From: Rhizobium aethiopicum
Lineage (GTDB): Bacteria > Pseudomonadota > Alphaproteobacteria > Rhizobiales > Rhizobiaceae
Reading direction: 5' to 3'
Length of the DNA: 64,000 bases
Assembly (NCBI RefSeq): GCF_014197535.1
Contig: NZ_JACIFV010000006.1
Span: 186,001-250,000 of the forward strand
Shown here: positions 5,305 through 17,429 of the stretch, one piece after another
Numbering within the stretch: the stretch's first letter is position 1
Layout: each line of letters starts with the position of its first letter
Position numbers and translations under genes: made by a program
Notes under the pieces: model-generated
What the model saw: the letters and a program-made list of their open reading frames with translations, nothing else
Told to the model about the DNA's origin: nothing
Database searches by the model: none

Positions 5305-6201
5305 ATGGACGAGACAATCGAACAGCTTCTCCATCTTTCCGCACAGACGGAAACGCTGATGGCGGTCTATGATGGCGACGACCGGCTGCGCTATGCCAAC
5401 AGCGCCTTCCGCTCGGCCTATTTCATCGAGCCGGAGGAAACGCCGCTCTGGCCGGATCTGATGCGGCGCAATTTTGATCTCGGCCGCGGCACCGTCATCC
5501 GCACGGATAATTTCGAGGAATGGCTGCGCTCGACCCAGTCGCGCCGCGGCAAGATCGGCTATCGCGCCTTCGAGACGGATCTTTCCGACGGCCGCTGGCT
5601 GTGGATGACCGAGGCGGTGCAGAAGAACGGCTGGATGCTGTGCATCGCCAGCGACATCACCCGTCTCAAGGTTCATGGCCGCACTGTCCGGCAGGATCGC
5701 GACCAGGCGATCAAGGCCTCCTACACCGACGAACTCACCGGCGTCGCCAATCGCCGCTTCGTCATGGCCCGCGTCGAAGACATGCTTGAAGCCGCCCGGC
5801 ATGGCAGCAGCGGCTGCCTCGCCGTCTTCGACATCGACAATTTCAAACGCATCAACGACCGGCTCGGCCACCATGCCGGCGATCTCGTGCTGCGCGATTT
5901 CGCCCATCGCATTCACCAGAATGTCCGCCGCAACGATTGCTTCGGCCGGGTCGGCGGCGAAGAATTCCTCCTCGTCATGCCGGCCACCGGCCCGGAAGAC
6001 GCCCTTGCCATGGTCGAGCGCATGCTGACGGTGATCCGCTTCTCCCGGCCGCTGCCGGATTCGCCGGATTTCAGCTACACCTGTTCTGCCGGCATCGCCG
6101 CGTGTGTGTCGACAGACAGTGCGTCGGAGCTTTACCGGCGGGCGGATCAGGCGTTGTATGATGCGAAGATGAGCGGGCGGGATAGGGTGCGGGCGGCGTA
6201 G
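5305..6201 (+). CDS. Diguanylate cyclase with N-terminal PAS-like sensor
   Basis: The protein (298 aa) should make cyclic di-GMP from two GTP. Residues about 10-125 look like a PAS domain, followed by a short linker and a GGDEF domain from about 135 to 298. The active-site signature is GGEEF (217-221), an accepted variant. An RxxD inhibitory site (R208-D211) lies exactly five residues before it, so product inhibition is expected. No EAL domain and no membrane segments are present, so it is probably cytosolic. The ATG follows the sequence ACAGGGTGCTGT. It is the last chromosomal-type gene before the island. Confidence 0.93.
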   Translation: MDETIEQLLHLSAQTETLMAVYDGDDRLRYANSAFRSAYFIEPEETPLWPDLMRRNFDLGRGTVIRTDNFEEWLRSTQSRRGKIGYRAFETDLSDGRWLWMTEAVQKNGWMLCIASDITRLKVHGRTVRQDRDQAIKASYTDELTGVANRRFVMARVEDMLEAARHGSSGCLAVFDIDNFKRINDRLGHHAGDLVLRDFAHRIHQNVRRNDCFGRVGGEEFLLVMPATGPEDALAMVERMLTVIRFSRPLPDSPDFSYTCSAGIAACVSTDSASELYRRADQALYDAKMSGRDRVRAA

Positions 6202-7194: not shown

Positions 7195-7530
7195 ACACAG
7201 TCTGGACCGGAGAAGTCCCGATGCGGCCTTAAACATTCATTCTAAGCGGTAGCTTCGGCACAGAAGCTTTCTTTGTCGGAGCGGAAGGCTAATGACTGCA
7301 TCAGGTCGACAGCGGCCGGGCGGCTATGCGCCCCATTCCGGCCACAGCTTGCATTCTAGCAGCCTCCCGGTGCATCGGTGAGAGGCCAGGGTTGCGTCGA
7401 AAGCAGCTTGAATCGAAGCTCTCTCAATTTGCCCGCCTTGTTTTGAACGACGGCTGCTCTCAATAATCATTGTGTGGAAAAGCATCAGCCATCCTGGTGG
7501 TGCGTTGGCCAGGCAGCCCATAATCTGCCG
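7195..7530. other. Intergenic region, no gene seen
   Basis: 336 bp between the HEPN-like gene and the helicase fusion. An in-frame GTG at 7474 could start the helicase protein earlier, and the region must otherwise hold its promoter. I find no repeat or hairpin worth naming. Confidence 0.4.
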
Positions 7531-10500
7531 ATGATTCAATGCCCTTTCTGCACCGCCGAATTGAGCCGCATCGCCTTTATGGACGATCAAGTCGTCGCGC
7601 TTTGGGATTCCTTTCCGGTGTCACCCGGACATCTGCTCATCGTTCCACGACGGCATGCGGCGACATGGGACGATCTCTCCGCGGACGAGAAGCAGGCTAT
7701 CTGGCGAAACATCGACAGGGCAAAATCCGACATCGAACGAAAGCACAAGCCGGATGGTTACAACGTCGGTTTCAATCTGGCTGAAGCTGCAGGGCAAACG
7801 GTTTTCCATTTCCACTTGCATGTCATTCCGCGCTACTTGGGTGACATCGACGACCCGAGAGGCGGAGTCAGACACGTTATCCCAAACAAGGCCAACTACC
7901 TAGCCCAAGAGGTCAGCGGCACCGAAGAGGTAAAGCGACTGGTCACTGGCGGAAGCGACCATCTTCTGCCCCATCTCATCATGCATATGGACCAGGCGAA
8001 TGCCTGCGACATAGCGGTAGCATTTCTGCTGGATAGCGGCGCAAGACTGATCGTGGAACATCTGAAAGATTTTCTGGCCCGCGGCGGACGTGCCCGCATT
8101 CTCGTCGGCGACTACATGGACGTGACCGAGCCGATCGCACTGCGGCGTTTGGCCGATCTCGGCGGCGACCTGATGCTCCGGGTCTTCGAGGCTACGGCGC
8201 AGGGATTTCACCTCAAGACTTATATCTTTCGGTCGGACAAGGAGGGCGTGGCATTTGTCGGCAGCTCCAATCTGTCAGAGGCGGCCCTGACCACATCGAT
8301 CGAGTGGAACTACAAGGTCATTTCGAGCCACGACCGAACGGCCTTCCCCGAGATTAGCAAAGGATTCGATGACCTCTTCAATTCCTATAGCGCCGTCTCC
8401 GTCACGCCGGAGTGGATCGACCGCTACGAAAACCGAAGAAGCCCACTAGGCTTTAAGGAGGCTGGCATGGCATACGAGCCGCCGCTGCCTCCTCCCGAAC
8501 CCCACGCGATCCAACGCCAGGCTCTCGCAGCGCTCGAGCAAACACGGCAGGATGGGTACACAGCGGGTCTGGTGGTGCTTGCTACGGGTCTCGGCAAGTC
8601 CTGGCTGGCGGCCTTCGACGGCGATCGATTCGAATATCGTCGCATCCTCTTCGTCGCCCATCGCGAGGAAATCCTCAATCAAGCGATCGAGACATTCCGG
8701 CGCGTGCGGCCGACCGCTCGGATCGGAAGATTGTCGGGCGATCACAAGGACACGGATTCCGATCTCCTTTTCGCCTCCGTTCAAACTCTCGGCAAGCCGA
8801 ATCAGATCAGGCAATTTCGGCCGAACACCTTCGACTATATCGTCATCGACGAGTTTCATCACGCAGCCGCAGGCACGTATCGACGCATCATCGATTATTT
8901 CGAACCGAAGTTCCTCCTCGGTCTCACGGCGACACCGGAGCGAGGCGATGGAGCTGATCTGCTCGGTCTGTGTCAAGAGAACCTCGTTTTCCAGGCCGGC
9001 ATCCATCTGGGGATAGAAGGCGGGCATCTCTGCCCCTTTCATTACTTCGGCGTCCCGGACACCGTAGATTACCGAAACATCCCCTGGCGAAGCGCGCAGT
9101 TTGACTTGACAGAACTCACCGCTGCTGTCGCCACGGAAGCACGTGCGCGGAACGCGCTCGAACAGTACCGACTACGCGGCGGGACGAAGTGCATCGGTTT
9201 CTGCTGCTCCCAGACACACGCGGATTTCATGGCCGATTTCTTCAACCGCCATGGGGTGTCGGCTGTCGCCGTCCATGCCGGCATCAATTCGGCACCTCGG
9301 GCTACGTCTCTGCAGAGACTGGAAGCGGGCGAACTCGAGGTAGTGTTTTCCGTCGACATGTTCAACGAAGGTGTCGACGTCCCGAGTATCGATAGCGTGT
9401 TGATGCTACGGCCAACGGAATCGACGATTATCTGGCTGCAACAACTCGGCCGCGGGTTGCGAAAATCAGCAAACAAGAACCGTCTCGTCGTCATCGACTA
9501 TATCGGCAACCACCGTATTTTCCTCACGAAGTTGCGTGCGATCGCATCGATTGCGAATGTCGATGCGTCGTCCGGCGGTCATGTCCGCGAGTTTCTGGAA
9601 AGGCTGCAGGGCGATCAAATCGCTTTGCCCACCGGCTGTGAAGTGACCTACGATCTCGAGGCAATCGAAATACTTCGCATGCTGGTGAAGCCGGCAAGCA
9701 CAGAAAATGCTCTGGAAGACTTTTACCGCGACTTCCTAGAGCGGCATGGCGTTCGGCCCACGGCGTCAGAGGTTTTCCACTCGGGTAACAATCCGAGAAG
9801 CAGCAGCGAGCGTTCATGGCTCGGATTCGTGGAACGCATGCGTGGGTTGAGCGATCTGGAGCGATCGATCTGGTTGAATCATCGAGATTTCTTTCTCGAG
9901 ATGGAGAAGACCGAACTAACCCGAAGCTACAAACTCATGACGCTTCTCGCGCTGTTCGATGAGGAGACCGTGCGGGACAGTTGTGCCGTCGATGAGATCG
10001 TCGAGCGCGTCGCGCAGTTGGCCTCTCGAGTCCACAAGCTGCAGCAGGACTTCTCTGTCGATCTCGCGGATCGGAAAGCGCTCAAATCGCTGCTGCTAAA
10101 GTTTCCGATCGATGTCCTAACGAAACTGCGGGATAGCGAGGGCGCCCCCTTTTTTACTTTGACGGAAAATCAATTTGGGCTAGTAAAAGCGACAGGGGAC
10201 CGAGAGACGTTCAGCCAGATTTTGCGGGAAATCCTCGATTGGCGTCTTGCGCAATATTTGACCAGAAGCGGTGTTTCCAACGAGCTGGCAGATGCTGTTT
10301 GTCGCGTCGCCCGAAACACGAGCGGACAACCTATCTTATTCCTCCCGACGCCGTCGGGCGCAGCGCAGCTGCCGGAAGGTCCTCTGGGCGTTTTTGTAGA
10401 CGATCAGCCGATGGAGGCTACAGTTGCCAAGATCGCGATTAACGTTGTGCGAAGAGCCGGCGATCCGTCCAACCGCTTGCCCACCATTCTTCGCGGATGG

Positions 10501-11049
10501 TTCGGCGACGATGCCGGACTTCCGGGCAAAGGCGATCGTGTCCGATTCCGGTTCCAGAGCGATGTCTGGCGCATGGAACCGATGGGCATACAGAGCCAGG
10601 CACAGGCAGGCCTTCGGCTTTGGGAACGCTATTCGCGGGAGACTATCCCTCCAGCCTTCGGCCTAACCTTCGATCAGGCGACGTGGAACGCCGGTTTCGT
10701 GCCGAAACCGCCTCACATCTTTCTGCTCGTAACCTTGGAGAAGGAGGGGATGATAGACACGCATCGCTATGCTGATCACTTCACCTCAGCCACGGAATTC
10801 TCTTGGCAAAGTCAAAACAGGACCAAGCAACACTCGAAGCACGGCGAGATGATCCGCGACCATCAAGCCCTGGGTTTTCACATCCACTTGCTGGTCCGCA
10901 AGACGAAGAAGATCGGCCCAAAGCCGGCACCGTTCATCTATTGTGGCGAAGTGGATTTCGACACGTGGACAGGCGACATGCCGATTACCGTGACATGGCG
11001 ACTGCGGCAGGCGGTCCCAACAATGCTTCTGTCACAACTGAAGAGATAA
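7531..11049 (+). CDS. HIT - phospholipase D - SF2 helicase - DUF3427 fusion protein
   Basis: A roughly 1170-aa multidomain protein. The start begins MIQCPFC, as HIT proteins do, and is followed by HFHLHVIP (about 93-100), the HxHxHxx nucleotide-hydrolase triad. Next comes a PLD-type nuclease half-domain with FHLKTYIF and GSSNLSEAAL (about 226-253). An SF2 helicase core follows: ATGLGKS, DEFHH, LTATPER and QQLGRGLRKS. The last part matches the DUF3427 tail, with WERYSRETIPPAFG and FSWQSQNRTKQHSKHG. Helicase plus PLD nuclease suggests a DNA-processing restriction or defence enzyme; the HIT domain would act on a nucleotide or nucleotidyl adduct. The GTG at 7474 would add 19 residues. It stands alone, followed by 265 bp with no gene. 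Confidence 0.88.
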   Translation: MIQCPFCTAELSRIAFMDDQVVALWDSFPVSPGHLLIVPRRHAATWDDLSADEKQAIWRNIDRAKSDIERKHKPDGYNVGFNLAEAAGQTVFHFHLHVIPRYLGDIDDPRGGVRHVIPNKANYLAQEVSGTEEVKRLVTGGSDHLLPHLIMHMDQANACDIAVAFLLDSGARLIVEHLKDFLARGGRARILVGDYMDVTEPIALRRLADLGGDLMLRVFEATAQGFHLKTYIFRSDKEGVAFVGSSNLSEAALTTSIEWNYKVISSHDRTAFPEISKGFDDLFNSYSAVSVTPEWIDRYENRRSPLGFKEAGMAYEPPLPPPEPHAIQRQALAALEQTRQDGYTAGLVVLATGLGKSWLAAFDGDRFEYRRILFVAHREEILNQAIETFRRVRPTARIGRLSGDHKDTDSDLLFASVQTLGKPNQIRQFRPNTFDYIVIDEFHHAAAGTYRRIIDYFEPKFLLGLTATPERGDGADLLGLCQENLVFQAGIHLGIEGGHLCPFHYFGVPDTVDYRNIPWRSAQFDLTELTAAVATEARARNALEQYRLRGGTKCIGFCCSQTHADFMADFFNRHGVSAVAVHAGINSAPRATSLQRLEAGELEVVFSVDMFNEGVDVPSIDSVLMLRPTESTIIWLQQLGRGLRKSANKNRLVVIDYIGNHRIFLTKLRAIASIANVDASSGGHVREFLERLQGDQIALPTGCEVTYDLEAIEILRMLVKPASTENALEDFYRDFLERHGVRPTASEVFHSGNNPRSSSERSWLGFVERMRGLSDLERSIWLNHRDFFLEMEKTELTRSYKLMTLLALFDEETVRDSCAVDEIVERVAQLASRVHKLQQDFSVDLADRKALKSLLLKFPIDVLTKLRDSEGAPFFTLTENQFGLVKATGDRETFSQILREILDWRLAQYLTRSGVSNELADAVCRVARNTSGQPILFLPTPSGAAQLPEGPLGVFVDDQPMEATVAKIAINVVRRAGDPSNRLPTILRGWFGDDAGLPGKGDRVRFRFQSDVWRMEPMGIQSQAQAGLRLWERYSRETIPPAFGLTFDQATWNAGFVPKPPHIFLLVTLEKEGMIDTHRYADHFTSATEFSWQSQNRTKQHSKHGEMIRDHQALGFHIHLLVRKTKKIGPKPAPFIYCGEVDFDTWTGDMPITVTWRLRQAVPTMLLSQLKR

Positions 11050-11314
11050 ACTGTTGACGCTTTCAACTGCGTCACAACGCTGATAGGTCGATAAGCGGGG
11101 GCTGTGTGTGTCAACTTGCCGAGATGCCGCGGCGGCTAAGCGCCTCCACGTCGGTCGTCCAGGGCGATCAGATACCTGAAAGCACACTTTTGGTGCTCTG
11201 TGCTACCATGGGCGCGACAAGTCCCGCGATTTTACAAGCCACCAACCTAGGCGGTATTGACTCTAAAGAACAAATCGCCTCACGTCGGAAATCTCGCTTT
11301 ACTCCTTCAGATGT

Positions 11315-12085
11315 ATGCCGATGACAAACCCACATCTAACTGTGTTCGTGGAAGGCCATGCGGACAGTTCAATGGTCCTAACGTTGGTCAACGCCTTGGG
11401 ACTGCATGAGAAAGCTCATGTAAATGTTCGATTGATGGGTAATAAGCGGAATATCGCAGCTCATGTCCGCCAGTTAAGTAATGACCATTCAAATAAGTTT
11501 GCTGCTCTCGTGGACGCCGACGAGGCGAGCGTCGCAGATTCAAGGGAGTTGGCACGTCAGCAATTGGGGCATCCATCAATTGATGTATTTTGTGCGGTCC
11601 CGACAATCGAAGCATGGATATTTGCCGATCCGGAATTTGCGAAGAGCGCGGCACGTAGTCCCCATGCGAAAGAAATGATTGATCGCGCACCGTTACCGGA
11701 AACAATCCCATACCCAAAGCAGTTCGCGATGAACGTATTTGGATCAGCAAGTAGGTACCCAAACGCTGGGAATTTCGATGTGAATCTAGCTGCTGCGCGC
11801 TCTCCTTCGTTGCGGGCTTTTGTTGAGGGAATCGGCACATTGATAGGTGCTGAAGTTGACTTCAAGTTGCCGGTTGGCAAACTCTCAGATACCCGTGATG
11901 TAGTCTCTACACTGTTGCGAGAACTACCTGAAACGAAGGTCGTTTGGAAAACGATGACAGGTGCACGGATTAGCGCAGGCGAGTTGGCTAGAGCAATTGC
12001 GGAGGGAACGCCGCTCGGAAATCAATACGCGACGGAGCTATTGAGGGTTGCCCGCGATCTAATCGCACGGCAAGCTAATAAATGA
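11315..12085 (+). CDS. TOPRIM-like protein, first gene of a two-gene module
   Basis: The protein (256 aa) is not a family I can name. It starts with a beta strand ending in VEGHAD (12-17), then ALVDADE (65-70), then CAVPTIEAWIFAD (93-105). The Glu of VEG and the two Asp of DxD are the acidic set of TOPRIM domains, and the PxIEAWxxAD segment resembles DUF4276-type TOPRIM proteins. A metal-dependent nuclease or nucleotide-binding role follows by analogy. Its stop overlaps the next start as ATGA, so the two are translationally coupled. Codon use is more AT-rich than in the flanking core genes, which suggests transfer. MPM offers an alternative start two codons later. Confidence 0.72.
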   Translation: MPMTNPHLTVFVEGHADSSMVLTLVNALGLHEKAHVNVRLMGNKRNIAAHVRQLSNDHSNKFAALVDADEASVADSRELARQQLGHPSIDVFCAVPTIEAWIFADPEFAKSAARSPHAKEMIDRAPLPETIPYPKQFAMNVFGSASRYPNAGNFDVNLAAARSPSLRAFVEGIGTLIGAEVDFKLPVGKLSDTRDVVSTLLRELPETKVVWKTMTGARISAGELARAIAEGTPLGNQYATELLRVARDLIARQANK

Positions 12086-12729
12086 CGATTTTTTTTGTTT
12101 CCTCGACGGACCCTGCAACGCAGGCTAATCACGCTATTGCATTACAAATGCTAGAGCAGAATGACGTCACCCTCTTTGCGGCCGATGCGACTCGCGCACG
12201 TTTACACTCGGAGTTCCAAGCCGCTCCGGAAGATAACCTCGTCTTTGCGATGAGTCACGGTTCACCAAATGCGCTTTGGGATTCAAACGGAGAAGAAGCG
12301 TTATCTGCTGACGACGCGGCTAATCTGCAGGGATACAATATCTTCTGCTGGGCGTGCCACACAGCTAAAGAGCTAGGACAATCCTTTGCTGCGTACGGTT
12401 CCACATGGTGGGGATATGACTGCGCGATAACTGCTCCTGATCCGCGCCCGCCGTATTCGACCGTTTTCCGGGATATACTGCTCAATTTGAAGCAAAGTTT
12501 CCCCGCCGGCGTAGATGCTGCTTCAGTCGCCGCTGTCTTCGCGACCACAAGAGCCGCGTGCGTCGACGCAGAAACACGATTGGAGGAAATCGGAGCGTCT
12601 GACGATGATGACGCGATGTCTATTTATTCATGTTGTAACCAGATCTGGCAGCATCTTTGCGTTTGGTTGGCGGGGCAAGGCCAGCCGATTTTCCACCCAG
12701 ACGCTCCAAGTTCTTCAATCTTCGGGTAG
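12082..12729 (+). CDS. Caspase/CHAT-like cysteine protease candidate, second gene of the module
   Basis: A 215-aa soluble protein. A hydrophobic strand runs into His59-Gly60 (VFAMSHG), and a second runs into Ala91-Cys92 (YNIFCWACHTA), followed by LGQSFAAYGSTWWGYD. A block-HG and block-AC arrangement with a Gly-rich strand after the Cys is the clan CD protease signature (caspases, gingipains, CHAT). The spacing of 33 residues is short but workable. The C-terminal third is acidic (SDDDDAMS) with a Cys pair. The start overlaps the stop of the TOPRIM-like gene by four bases. I infer a protease effector controlled by its partner; the substrate is unknown. Confidence 0.68.
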   Translation: MTIFFVSSTDPATQANHAIALQMLEQNDVTLFAADATRARLHSEFQAAPEDNLVFAMSHGSPNALWDSNGEEALSADDAANLQGYNIFCWACHTAKELGQSFAAYGSTWWGYDCAITAPDPRPPYSTVFRDILLNLKQSFPAGVDAASVAAVFATTRAACVDAETRLEEIGASDDDDAMSIYSCCNQIWQHLCVWLAGQGQPIFHPDAPSSSIFG

Positions 12730-12897
12730 TTCTTAACGTACTTTTTCTGGTACAAGAGCATTCCGCATATGTTTTGCTCCGACTGCTTTGGATCGATCCT
12801 CGACCTTGCTGTGAGTACTTCGATCTCGGCCTCCTTGTATGCTACCCTGGGAACGAAAAGGTCTGCTCTCCGCTCGAAATAGCATTGTAGACTAGTC

Positions 12898-13215
12898 GAT
12901 GTCCGCTACTGGCCAACTACACCACCGTATTAAATTCCGCCGCCGGCACCGCATCCTTCAGCGCCCAGGGATACGCATGCTGGGGGTCATCCAACACCGC
13001 CCGAGCCGGCCCGCGCTCGACGATCTCTCCCTATCGCATGAGGATGTTGTCGCTGACGTAATAGGCGGTCGCCCAGATCATGCGTGATGTAGATAATCGA
13101 AACGCCGAGTTCGTTTCTCAGCCAGCCGAAGAGGTTGACGATCGCCATTCGCAGCGATGCGTCGACCATCGAGCCGGTTCGTCGGCCACCAGCAGCCGAC
13201 TCAGGGATCAGCGCG
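12898..13215 (-). pseudogene. Degenerate second copy of the 3' end of the oppF-type gene
   Basis: This segment is colinear, in the same orientation, with about 15620-15935. Both carry the TAG stop region, the [23 protein letters not shown] coding stretch, and the [12 protein letters not shown] motif. The copy has substitutions and small indels that break the frame after THDL. Homology ends abruptly at GATCAGCGCG (13206-13215), where recombinase-like sequence begins. It is a non-functional duplicate left by an insertion or recombination event at the 3' end of the transporter gene. Confidence 0.8.
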
Positions 13216-13400
13216 AGGATTGCGGCACTCACTCGCTCCGGCGCACGAGGCCGCGAATGATCTACAAAGCGGCGGGGAATCTTCGTGCCATCCAAATCCT
13301 GCTAGGTCACACCAAGATCGAGAATGGAGGCAGGTATTTTGGATTCGGACATCGAGGATGCGCTGGAACTGGCGGAGCCGTGCGCGCCGCGACACACGCG
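13216..13400 (+). pseudogene. Tyrosine recombinase (integrase) C-terminal remnant
   Basis: Translating from about 13216 gives [31 protein letters not shown] and RYFG, the box II region of tyrosine recombinases (HxLRRT, LLGHxxIxxTxRY). Past about 13335 the reading moves to another frame, where IEDALELAEPC matches the usual end of this integrase subfamily. There is no N-terminal catalytic domain, and the Tyr region is frameshifted. It is therefore a dead fragment of the enzyme that probably moved this island. Confidence 0.75.
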
Positions 13401-13624
13401 CGTTCCTCGCATGCGCAAATGGCGGAACAGCTATGCGCCTCGATAGGCCGCTATTCGTAGGTGCTAACGCTGTCCCCGACAGCCGCCATACGGTGAGGTT
13501 CTACAACCGAACCAAGATCACCGGGTGGGTGATCGTCGGCATACATCACTCACCCACCTCAACCGCAGCTTGAGCAAAAGGTCGGCCCTCGGTATGCTAC
13601 TCCGGTAAAGGGTATAGGTAAGGC
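13401..13624. other. Region between integrase remnant and OLD gene
   Basis: 224 bp with no supportable gene. It holds a short repeated phrase (ACTCACCCACCTCAAC) near 13550 and presumably the promoter of the OLD-type gene, whose ATG is at 13625 after GGTATAGGTAAGGC. Confidence 0.35.
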
Positions 13625-15478
13625 ATGCGAATCGATTACCTTCAAATATCAAATGTTCTCAGCTTTCCCTATCGCGCCGATGTGAGTCAGGCCGATAAAT
13701 TAGAATTCGACGATGGTCTAAATATTATTATCGGCGAGAATGGCTCCGGAAAATCGACAGCCCTCGAAGTTGTTAACTTCCTCTTCCGAAGGGTCATATA
13801 TCGCCAGTTCAGCTTCAATCGTGAGCTGTTTGGGCGCCGCTTAACCCTTGTAATGAATGATAGGCAGCAGGTTCTGCAGCCAGCCAATCACACCGATATC
13901 AATGGTTTCCGGCTGGACGCTAACTGGGATAGCGAAGATCAAGAGCAGCGTATTCGTATAGCAGTGCGACTCGACGACATCGACCGGCAGAACATTCGCA
14001 ATATCAGGGCTCACCTTGCGGAGCTTACCGAAACGCTAGGATCATACTCTACTTATAAGGTTATTAACGCCGCTGGCGAAGAGCGCGACACGTACGTTAT
14101 TGACGTGATATTGAACCGTGCGGCGAATAATTTCTCGGTTCAGCTGCAGGGTGGAGAACATGACTTTGGCTTCACTTATCTAACTGACTATCACTTTTTC
14201 AGAGAAGCCATTTCTCTTCAAAATGCCCTCATGGGCGGTGAGCCGATCCCGCCGCTCTATGAGAGCTTCACGCTTATCAGTAGCTATCGCAACTACCACG
14301 CGTTTCAGCCTTCAATTTCCCTCAGTAGCGCCTCCGCGTCGCAGCAAATTCAGGACATACGGAATCAAGATTTCAATCGTAGCCTCAATGCCACCGACCG
14401 CCATGAACCCCCTGTGTTCGCGCTCGTGCGGCTGCAGGTTGCTGAGCGCCATTTCCACCTCATTTCACAAGCAAAAGACCTAGCGCAGTGTGAGCAAGAA
14501 GCGAACGATCTACCCTTTGTGAGGTCGGTCAATGAGCGACTGCGCGTGGTAAATCTGCGATGTCAAATAAAGCTTCTGGACCAGCGGACATGGCAGTACA
14601 GCTTTGAATTCTACGACACCCGTCGCAACAAGCCTATCGGCGACATCAACAGCCTGAGCGCGGGTCAAAAAGCGATTATTCACCTAGTGCTTGAGGCCTA
14701 TGGGAGGGGTGAGCTGAAGGGTGGCGTCGTTATCATTGATGAACCTGAAATTCATTTGCATTATCAGTTTCAGCACGAGTATCTGCAGGTACTCCGGGAG
14801 CTGAACCGGACGCAGAACTGTCAATATATTCTCGTTACCCATTCGGAATCGCTCATCAACTCGAGCACCATAAATTCCGTACGCCGGTTTGCGCTTAATG
14901 CGAACGGTCAAACATCAATCTTCTCGCCAACACTTTCCGCAGATGAGAAAAGCCTCATACGCATTCTCGACAACTCCCGATCCACCTATGCCTTTTTCTC
15001 GAAAAAAGTGGTTCTGGTGGAAGGCGACACCGACCGCTATTTCTTCAGGGCGCTGCTCCAGGAGCGGTACCGTCTGCTCGAACAAGAAATCGCGGTTCTC
15101 CATGTCGGCGGAAAGAGAGAACTGCCGAAGTGGTACAGCCTGTTTTCAAGCTTTGGCCTCCGCGTTTATGCAATCTCAGACTTCGATTACATCGTGAATT
15201 TGCATTATCCCGCCGACAACGGTGTTCCCCTCCGAACTGATGAACAAATCGCCGCGTTCAAACGAACACACGTGGATTGGGAACGTCACATAGACGCCTC
15301 GGCAGCAGGCGGCACGTTCGTCCTACGTGAAGGAGATCTCGAAACGTACCTTGGTATTGGGAAGGATCTTAGTCATGTGATCGAATTCTGCCAAAACGGT
15401 CTTCAGGTATTTTTGTCAGACGACACTTCCGGCAAGAGCCGCGAAATACGGTCGATCATCGATGCCATCGTAAACTAA
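13625..15478 (+). CDS. OLD-family ATPase-TOPRIM endonuclease
   Basis: The protein (617 aa) combines an ABC/SMC-like ATPase with a C-terminal TOPRIM nuclease, as in the phage P2 Old protein and GajA. Walker A is GENGSGKS (37-44), the signature-like LSAGQK is at 344-349, Walker B is VVIIDEPE (about 368-375), and the H-loop is THSE (405-408). TOPRIM acidic residues are E466 in LVEGDTD, D519/D521 in SDFDY, and E569 in REGDLE. Stand-alone class 1 OLD proteins are nickases or nucleases; many act against phage. No UvrD/GajB-like partner follows, so this is not a Gabija pair. Its lower GC than the core genes agrees with acquisition. Confidence 0.88.
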   Translation: MRIDYLQISNVLSFPYRADVSQADKLEFDDGLNIIIGENGSGKSTALEVVNFLFRRVIYRQFSFNRELFGRRLTLVMNDRQQVLQPANHTDINGFRLDANWDSEDQEQRIRIAVRLDDIDRQNIRNIRAHLAELTETLGSYSTYKVINAAGEERDTYVIDVILNRAANNFSVQLQGGEHDFGFTYLTDYHFFREAISLQNALMGGEPIPPLYESFTLISSYRNYHAFQPSISLSSASASQQIQDIRNQDFNRSLNATDRHEPPVFALVRLQVAERHFHLISQAKDLAQCEQEANDLPFVRSVNERLRVVNLRCQIKLLDQRTWQYSFEFYDTRRNKPIGDINSLSAGQKAIIHLVLEAYGRGELKGGVVIIDEPEIHLHYQFQHEYLQVLRELNRTQNCQYILVTHSESLINSSTINSVRRFALNANGQTSIFSPTLSADEKSLIRILDNSRSTYAFFSKKVVLVEGDTDRYFFRALLQERYRLLEQEIAVLHVGGKRELPKWYSLFSSFGLRVYAISDFDYIVNLHYPADNGVPLRTDEQIAAFKRTHVDWERHIDASAAGGTFVLREGDLETYLGIGKDLSHVIEFCQNGLQVFLSDDTSGKSREIRSIIDAIVN

Positions 15479-15633
15479 TGGTTCTGCAATGACGCCGAGG
15501 CGCTACTAGGAAGCAACGCGGCAACTTGCGCTCCGACGTTAGCTTCGCCCGCTGCTGAGCCCGAAAGCTGAAATGCTGCTTACGGCCCCAAATAAGTCAT
15601 TCCAGCCAAGGCGGTGTCAGCGCTAATAGCGAA

Positions 15634-16443
15634 CTACCCCACCTCACCAAACTCCGCCGCCAACACCGCATCCTTCAGCGCCCGCGAATACGCATGCTGC
15701 GGATCATCCAGCACCGCCCGCGCTCGCCCGCGCTCAACAATCTCGCCCTTGCGCATGATGATAATATTGTCGCTGACATAATAAGCCGTCGCCAGATCAT
15801 GGGTGATGTAGATGATCGAAAGCCCCAGCTCGTTCTTCAGCCGGCCGAAGAGGTTGACGATCGCCATGCGCAGCGACGCGTCGACCATCGAGACCGGTTC
15901 GTCGGCCACCAGCAGGCGCGGCTCAGGGATCAGCGCGCGGGCGATGGCGACGCGTTGCAGCTGGCCGCCGGAGAGTTCGTGGGGGAAGCGGCCCTTTACC
16001 TCTTCCAGCGTCAGGCCGACATGGTGGAGGGCGGTGTCGGCCATCTTCTCCACCTCCCGCCGGTTCGGCCGCTTGCCGGAGGTGGAGAAGTTGCTGGCGG
16101 TCTCGAAGAGGTAGCGGTCGACCCGCTTCAGCGGGTTGAAGGCTTCGAAGGGGTTCTGCAGCACCGGCTGCACCTCCTTCATGAAGGCGGTGCGTTCGGC
16201 CCTGTTGTGGATCGCCACGGTCTTGCCGGCAAATTGCAGCTCGCCTTCGGTCGGCTCGGCCTGGCCGAGGATCATCGCCGCCACCGTCGATTTGCCCGAG
16301 CCGGATTCGCCGACGATCGAGAGGATCTCCGGCTCGTCGCCGATTTCGAAGCTGACATCCTTGACGGCGGTGATCAGCCGCCGGCCGAGCATGCCGCCCT
16401 GGCGGTAGATTTTCGTCACATGCGAGAGGCTAAGCAGAGTCAA
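15634..16443 (-). CDS. Oligopeptide-type ABC transporter ATP-binding protein (OppF/DppF-like)
   Basis: One of the two ATPases powering the importer of this operon. Walker A is GESGSGKST, the signature LSGGQLQR, Walker B LLVADEPVS, and the H-loop YITHD. I place the start at the TTG overlapping the preceding stop as TTGA, since GGGGGA lies 6 nt upstream and TLLSLSHVTKIY then opens the protein. The GTG at 16470 would add nine residues encoded inside the upstream gene. The 3' end of this gene is duplicated in degraded form at 12898-13215. Substrate is inferred from the linked GH51 enzyme. Confidence 0.9.
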   Translation of the reverse strand: MTLLSLSHVTKIYRQGGMLGRRLITAVKDVSFEIGDEPEILSIVGESGSGKSTVAAMILGQAEPTEGELQFAGKTVAIHNRAERTAFMKEVQPVLQNPFEAFNPLKRVDRYLFETASNFSTSGKRPNRREVEKMADTALHHVGLTLEEVKGRFPHELSGGQLQRVAIARALIPEPRLLVADEPVSMVDASLRMAIVNLFGRLKNELGLSIIYITHDLATAYYVSDNIIIMRKGEIVERGRARAVLDDPQHAYSRALKDAVLAAEFGEVG

Positions 16444-17429
16444 ACCTGATCCCCCGTAACCGCAAAACACGCCACCCGCCGCTCCGGCGCGACGGTGACC
16501 AAGGGCGGAACCTTCTGTGAGCAGATCTCCATGCGCTTCGGGCAGCGCGGGTGAAAGCGGCAGCCCTCCGGCGGCATGGCAAGGTTCGGCGGCCGTCCCT
16601 CCAGCGAGGGCCGGGTGGTGGGGTCGCCGATCTTCGGCAGGCTGCCGACAAGGTGCTGCGTATAGGGGTGGAGCGGCGCGCTGAAGAGTTTCGCCGTCGG
16701 CGCCTCCTCGACCAGCCGGCCGGCATAGACGATGCCGATGCGATCGGAGACCGTCGCATGCACGCCCATATCATGGGTGACGAACAGGAAGGAGGAGCCC
16801 ATCTCGCGCTGGATGTCGCGGATCATCGACAAGACGTCGCGCTGCACGATGACGTCGAGCGCCGTAGTCGGCTCGTCGGCGATGATGAATTCAGGCGTCA
16901 GGATGGTGGCGAGCGCAATGGTCATGCGCTGGCGCATGCCGCCGGAGAGTTCGTGCGGATAGGCGTCGAGCAGCTGCAGATCGAGCTTCAGCCGCTCCAG
17001 ATGGGCGGCGACCTTCTCGAAGAAGACCGGCTTGCTCAGCTTCACGTGGCGGAAGGCGAAATCGGTGAAGGAATGGCGGATCCGGCGCACCGGATTGAGC
17101 ACATTCATCGAGCCCTGCATGATATAGGAGAGATGCTTCCAGCGCAGCGCCATGCGCTCCTCCGGCGTCATCGCATAGAGATCCTGGGTGCCGCCGCCGA
17201 AATGGAATTTGACGCTGCCGGAAACGACCCGGAGCGGCGGCCGGATGGCGCCGGCAATGGTCTTGATCAGCGTCGTCTTGCCGCTGCTCGATTCGCCGGC
17301 GACGCCATAGACCTCGCCGCGGCGGATCGTCAGGCTGATGTCGTCGACGGCGCGCACCTCGCGATCGACGCCATAGAGGAAGGCGCGGTAATAGGCTTTC
17401 AAGTTGTCGATTTCGACCAGATTCTCCAT
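16440..17429 (-). CDS. Oligopeptide-type ABC transporter ATP-binding protein (OppD/DppD-like)
   Basis: A 329-aa ATPase with Walker A GESSSGKTT, where Ser replaces the usual Gly, signature LSGGMRQR, Walker B FIIADEPTT and H-loop FVTHD. The C-terminal extension has CRFHPRCPKRMEIC, the Cys-rich oligopeptide-binding tail typical of OppD/DppD. It is cytosolic and pairs with the OppF-like subunit, whose start overlaps its stop. The ATG lies one base from the permease stop, so the five transporter genes form one transcription unit. Confidence 0.92.
   Translation of the reverse strand: MENLVEIDNLKAYYRAFLYGVDREVRAVDDISLTIRRGEVYGVAGESSSGKTTLIKTIAGAIRPPLRVVSGSVKFHFGGGTQDLYAMTPEERMALRWKHLSYIMQGSMNVLNPVRRIRHSFTDFAFRHVKLSKPVFFEKVAAHLERLKLDLQLLDAYPHELSGGMRQRMTIALATILTPEFIIADEPTTALDVIVQRDVLSMIRDIQREMGSSFLFVTHDMGVHATVSDRIGIVYAGRLVEEAPTAKLFSAPLHPYTQHLVGSLPKIGDPTTRPSLEGRPPNLAMPPEGCRFHPRCPKRMEICSQKVPPLVTVAPERRVACFAVTGDQV

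Follow-up and report, generated by a model that had tools for sequence, protein, structure and literature searches.

Why does a decayed second copy of the 3′ end of oppF accompany the intact gene at this Rhizobium aethiopicum locus, with an OLD-family gene between the two? We addressed this question in a 64,000-nucleotide stretch of DNA, called the window below, and in related genomes of the genus. The second oppF end is most likely a scar that was left when foreign DNA inserted beside oppF, and we give a probability of about 70% to a homology-anchored insertion that needed no integrase and took place at a hotspot for defence genes on a secondary replicon of Rhizobium. Similar scars with other cut points are found in related rhizobia, a pattern that points to ordinary recombination and away from an integrase of the phage type.

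In the window, the left copy repeats the oppF 3′ end together with about 55 bp of flanking sequence, in the same orientation as its counterpart (Table 1). A repeat search and a local alignment agreed on the direct repeat (12863–13219 versus 15576–15941), and the two aligned copies shared 301 identities, with 54 mismatches and 11 gap positions. The stop codon of the left copy (12917–12919) is the counterpart of the intact oppF stop (15634–15636); past the stop, the homology continues for about 55 bp and is weak towards its far end, while in the local alignment it stops at GATCAGCGCG (13206–13215 and 15928–15937). The left copy carries a frameshift. It matches the window's own oppF at E ~3e-92, and in a search of 148 genomes of the genus its best other matches were to oppF orthologues (80–86%), so that it is a real oppF duplicate, with a similarity far above that of unrelated ABC ATPases or of ABC-ATPase paralogs. 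Between the left copy and its own oppF, the three codon positions carry 10, 7, and 24 mismatches (of about 100 each), as compared to 3, 2, and 14 (of 110 each) when the intact oppF genes of the window genome (G000) and G018 are aligned; the left copy has lost constraint at every codon position. The preliminary description had proposed a duplicated oppF 3′ end with a decayed left copy that matches from beyond the stop, and an intact copy from 15634 with the OLD gene in between, and the alignments confirm each of these features. An intact ancestral oppF at the left site, as well as an empty site for the window event, was sought in relatives, and neither was found because the left flank (11300–12900) matched only the window genome among the 148.

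Table 1. Features of the oppF region, with positions counted from the first nucleotide of the window.
Feature	Position	Strand	Basis
GGDEF gene, which bounds the variable region on its other side in many relatives	5305–6201	+	
Type IV restriction-like HIT-PLD-helicase-DUF3427 protein; DNA 94% identical in G018, there beside oppF with no scar detected	7474–11049	+	
DUF3226/DUF4276-like protein, PADLOC HEC-01B	11315–12085	+	
215-aa ORF, left neighbour of the putative scar, no Pfam or PADLOC match	12082–12729	+	
Decayed oppF 3′ end (putative scar), coding part 12917–13215, plus ~55 bp of 3′ flank	12863–13215	-	Repeat search, alignment
CGCG, the 4-bp overlap of oppF and integrase gene where the two are fused	13212–13215	.	
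Remnant of a dispersed short (~200 aa) tyrosine recombinase, N-terminal part missing at the junction	13212–13378	+	
OLD cassette, with similar boundaries also present in three more Rhizobium genomes, at unrelated loci	13427–15592	+	
OLD-family gene, AAA ATPase and TOPRIM, 617 aa	13625–15478	+	
Counterpart of the left copy, 3′ end of intact oppF with its flank	15576–15937	-	Repeat search, alignment
Intact oppF, oligopeptide ABC transporter ATPase	15634–16470	-	
oppD	16440–17429	-	

The left oppF copy is fused to the middle of a tyrosine-recombinase remnant, as the preliminary description had stated in reporting a direct switch from decayed oppF into integrase sequence. The oppF and integrase homologies overlap by the four bases CGCG, an overlap that could arise by chance. 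Against the Pfam profile PF00589, the remnant gave an E value of 5.2e-4 and 21.6 bits, which does not reach the family cut-off of 27.1, and its DNA is about 80–84% identical to short tyrosine recombinase copies in six other genomes; this short integrase family is dispersed across the genus. The remnant is real but short, and only a C-terminal part is present in the window.

The gene between the two oppF copies carries the Pfam domains AAA_15 and OLD-like_TOPRIM and lies within a cassette of about 2.1 kb, which recurs with 86–91% identity at unrelated loci in G085, G083, and G048, although in G048 the homology ends about 85 bp earlier. The integrase of the window was sought at these three loci and had no match at any of them, and the ends of the cassette revealed no convincing terminal (inverted) repeats or target duplications. 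The OLD gene is a separate, independent, and solitary cassette.

We asked how often such fragments occur beside oppF in other genomes. Matches to oppF were present in 117 of the 148 genomes, 47 of which had a match with an E value of 1.1e-60 or lower. Three of these (G026, G075, and G079) were removed because the contig ends near the gene, and in the remaining 44 genomes each one's own oppF served as the query for the region downstream of the intact gene. The downstream stretches were short in G066 (0.9 kb), G031 (3.0 kb), and G017 (8.7 kb). Matches in the opposite orientation, taken as other ABC ATPases, and a direct match of 71.5% in G070 were not counted. A direct-orientation oppF fragment was found downstream of the intact gene in 10 of the 44 genomes, with end points, measured from the stop, at 31–36 nt in G056 and G058, at 90 and 448 nt in G010 (two fragments), and at 173 nt in G067, 225 nt in G112, 307 nt in the window genome, 387 nt in G017, 691 nt in G066 and G001, and 781 nt in G019. 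Among further named strains, the end point lies at 173 nt in N831, CIAT 652, and CC511 and at 784 nt in Mim1, which gives about nine different end points overall, from about 31 to 784 nt. Several fragments may share one event (G067 with N831, CIAT 652, and CC511; G056 with G058; G066 with G001; G019 with Mim1), and the number of independent events is therefore nearer nine than fourteen. As a control, the same search for fragments of oppA, oppB, oppC, and oppD, with the window sequences as queries (oppA in part only) and matches of at least 78% identity, found none in the 44 genomes. The ends are sharp at both G010 fragments and in G017, G019, and G001, where 49–60 of the last 60 positions but 13–21 of the next 60 are identical; this ungapped measure was uninformative for G067, G112, G000, and G066, probably owing to indels. 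The left flank of the larger G010 fragment was also sought, and no other plasmid with that flank was found.

The comparison of named strains reveals the site in a nearly empty and in a filled form. A gap of 32 bp separates the end of ssuD from intact oppF in R. etli IE4803, while in CIAT 652, CC511, and R. phaseoli N831, ssuD is followed by an oppF scar of 171–173 nt, with intact oppF 9.5–13.8 kb away (9.5 kb in N831). In N831, an additional stretch of about 50 bp separates the scar from ssuD; the scar is joined there to a cyclase fragment, and the junction showed no shared bases. Of about 171 positions, the N831 scar is identical to IE4803 at 145, to N831 at 144, to R620 at 146, and to CC511 at 150, values that do not distinguish the allele classes. 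The intact genes are mosaic. N831 and R620, both named R. phaseoli, are 83–92% identical over roughly the first kilobase from the oppF stop (one window reaches 95%), as compared to 95–100% beyond oppF and the adjoining part of oppD. In N621, the 3′ end of oppF is 95–99% like R620 and the upstream part is 95–100% like the window, the allele class switching 150–225 nt from the stop, and its neighbours (cyclase, YHS, and ankyrin genes) are those of R620; the oppF 3′ end and the cargo therefore share an allele class, and these similarities point to a probable crossover inside oppF with the cargo on its 3′ side.

The window genome comprises 6.49 Mb in 61 contigs, and there are no tRNAs in the window. 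Its opp region has its closest matches on secondary replicons of the Rhizobium etli group, with 96.5% identity to R. binae over 3.9 kb; the replicon of R. etli CFN 42 is known as p42e. The cargo found at the oppF spot includes anti-phage systems. In the window, these are the OLD gene, the type IV restriction-like helicase, and the HEC-01B-like protein. R. sophoriradicis CC511 has a Gabija pair (L127:35435-39669), and Rhizobium sp. Kim5 has, on the same side of oppF, Lamassu LmuB-like and ABC-three-component genes (L129:14481-18080). In G018, the same helicase (94%) and a 620-aa ORF adjoin oppF, and no scar was detected there.

How might such scars form? By homology-anchored insertion, incoming DNA that carries the 3′ part of oppF with attached genes would recombine with the resident oppF through one homologous crossover, while its other end would be joined inside oppF without real homology. 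This would yield an intact oppF, which may be a hybrid, together with the new genes and a 5′-truncated old 3′ end; the latter would be displaced and would still adjoin its old neighbours. The same product could come from a circle with a truncated oppF arm, through a single crossover, or from linear DNA, through homology-facilitated illegitimate recombination. For the window's own lineage, we infer the crossover itself, which copy is old, and the order of events: the left copy would be the older oppF end beside older neighbours (the helicase, HEC-01B-like, and 12082 genes), and the integrase remnant and OLD cassette would form a new block, arriving later with the present oppF end. The arrangement in G018 presumably resembles the state before insertion. 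It is worth mentioning that a PF00589 remnant right at the window junction is a point against this reading. An assignment of the left copy to the allele class of other lineages, made from its last codons, was not borne out by the tree.

Alternatively, the oppF 3′ end may have been duplicated in tandem in the window lineage and later split by integrase debris and the OLD cassette. The tree leaves the left copy without a firm position, and an old in-situ duplication is a possible origin of it because the AU test does not reject the left copy and the window's oppF as sisters (p = 0.37); the larger G010 fragment likewise groups near its own oppF at 95%. However, the direct fusion of the copy to the integrase fragment means that the debris must have landed at the duplication joint. 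In N831, moreover, the scar occupies the place that intact oppF has beside ssuD in IE4803, with a new operon between, and the mosaic oppF alleles of N831, R620, and N621 also argue against a purely local origin, so that we hold a tandem duplication to be unlikely.

The preliminary description had proposed integration at the oppF 3′ end, either site-specific or homologous. Integration beside or into the 3′ end is supported and its homologous form fits best, whereas the site-specific form is not supported. In the latter, the oppF 3′ end would have served as attB for an element with a tyrosine integrase; the element would have supplied a gene end of its own, pushing the old one aside, and would then have decayed. 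A tyrosine-recombinase remnant does abut the displaced oppF end, the gene end is rebuilt, as gene-end integrators would do, and a short direct repeat surrounds a 0.9 kb insert in G056 and G058. However, the integrase is truncated at the very junction, which lies inside its gene, and a complete integrase gene is absent from the element; in the integrase gene copies compared in other genomes, the similarity to the window ends inside the gene, with no common downstream sequence, and the OLD cassette occurs elsewhere without that integrase. A PF00589 profile search covered 42 of the 44 surveyed genomes (all but G031 and G032) as well as G026 and G079, and, the window remnant apart, no other PF00589 match was among those listed within 20 kb of this oppF in the 42 genomes. 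The scattered end points in relatives, which define no one fixed crossover point, and the lack of integrases among the matches listed nearby ruled out site-specific integration as the leading reading, and we consider it markedly improbable. Two observations go the other way: the Mim1 island carries a protein annotated as belonging to a recombinase family, and on another plasmid of NXC14 an oppF remnant lies near a truncated PF00589 match.

Traffic of insertion sequences or serine recombinases at an unselected spot, with oppF pieces carried by chance, is very hard to credit, since the recombinase family protein annotated in the Mim1 island (L126:7661-9724) and the IS66-like ORF (identified by eye) near a second oppF remnant of NXC14 are outweighed by the single orientation of every counted fragment downstream of intact oppF, once the G070 match is dropped, and by the OLD cassette, which showed neither a terminal inverted repeat nor a target duplication.

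The homology-anchored reading places the window in a known kind of event, which includes single-crossover duplications, successive displacement, and integrase-free hotspots. In a study of E. coli conjugation with a plasmid carrying a lacZ end, 56 of 60 Lac- recombinants gave a PCR product for a partial lacZ duplication, and the duplications in 14 sequenced recombinants measured 109–950 bp and were ascribed to the single crossover of a circle (PMC3240628). The oppF scars resemble these products as partial direct duplications of a gene end that vary in length, have foreign DNA between, and end at a variable non-homologous point; unlike the laboratory plasmid, they are natural, old, and stacked at one site. 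They also resemble homology-facilitated illegitimate recombination in having one homologous and one illegitimate end, although such products usually have a recipient deletion and the window has a duplication (PMC3240628). Most published cases show 3–10 bp of microhomology; the window junction has 4 bp, and the N831 junction showed none. For Vibrio T6SS clusters, successive displacement has been proposed, with immunity-gene arrays and Rhs orphan 3′ regions in which one-sided insertions likewise push older 3′ material downstream; there, the displaced parts are whole genes, maybe kept by selection, whereas the oppF ends decay (PMC5361080). Integration hotspots without mobile elements but with recombining flanks have been described (PMC5635113), and the oppF site shares with them variable cargo that includes defence genes, conserved flanking genes with mosaic alleles, and no other tyrosine integrase among the matches listed nearby. 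That study proposes a double homologous exchange at both flanks, whereas the oppF scars suggest that joining at one of the two ends often took place without homology. In R. etli, both homologous recombination and end joining act on double-strand breaks (PMC10932983); a point against is that R. etli lineages are reported to recombine little (PMC3215678). A search of the literature on this oppF site found no title, which does not prove absence.

For the many gene-turnover hotspots without integrases, the way in which they fill is a matter of debate. A truncated copy of the flanking gene could be the physical record of a one-sided, homology-anchored insertion, and the mechanism could then be tested by counting scars beside other hotspots. 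A more far-reaching view, which we offer tentatively and regard as rather unlikely, is that the oppF 3′ end is an integrase-free docking site, where defence and metabolic cassettes would arrive on DNA molecules whose own oppF end provides the homology arm; oppF would be rebuilt each time and a truncated old end left behind, and the scars would be a readable tally of successive arrivals.

Several further arrangements were observed in other strains. The Mim1 recombinase family protein comes after a shortened ATP-binding gene, the Kim5 version of which is longer. On the other plasmid of NXC14, ssuD adjoins a nearly full-length, decayed oppF (L118:7878-9928), and further along the same plasmid there is an ORF that we take, by eye, to be nodA-like (L118 12263-12895). 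The repeat of G056 (L098) and G058 (L092) is about 55 bp long, the insert that it surrounds has one ORF and lies about 0.9 kb downstream of oppF, and the repeat spans the junction of two convergent gene ends.
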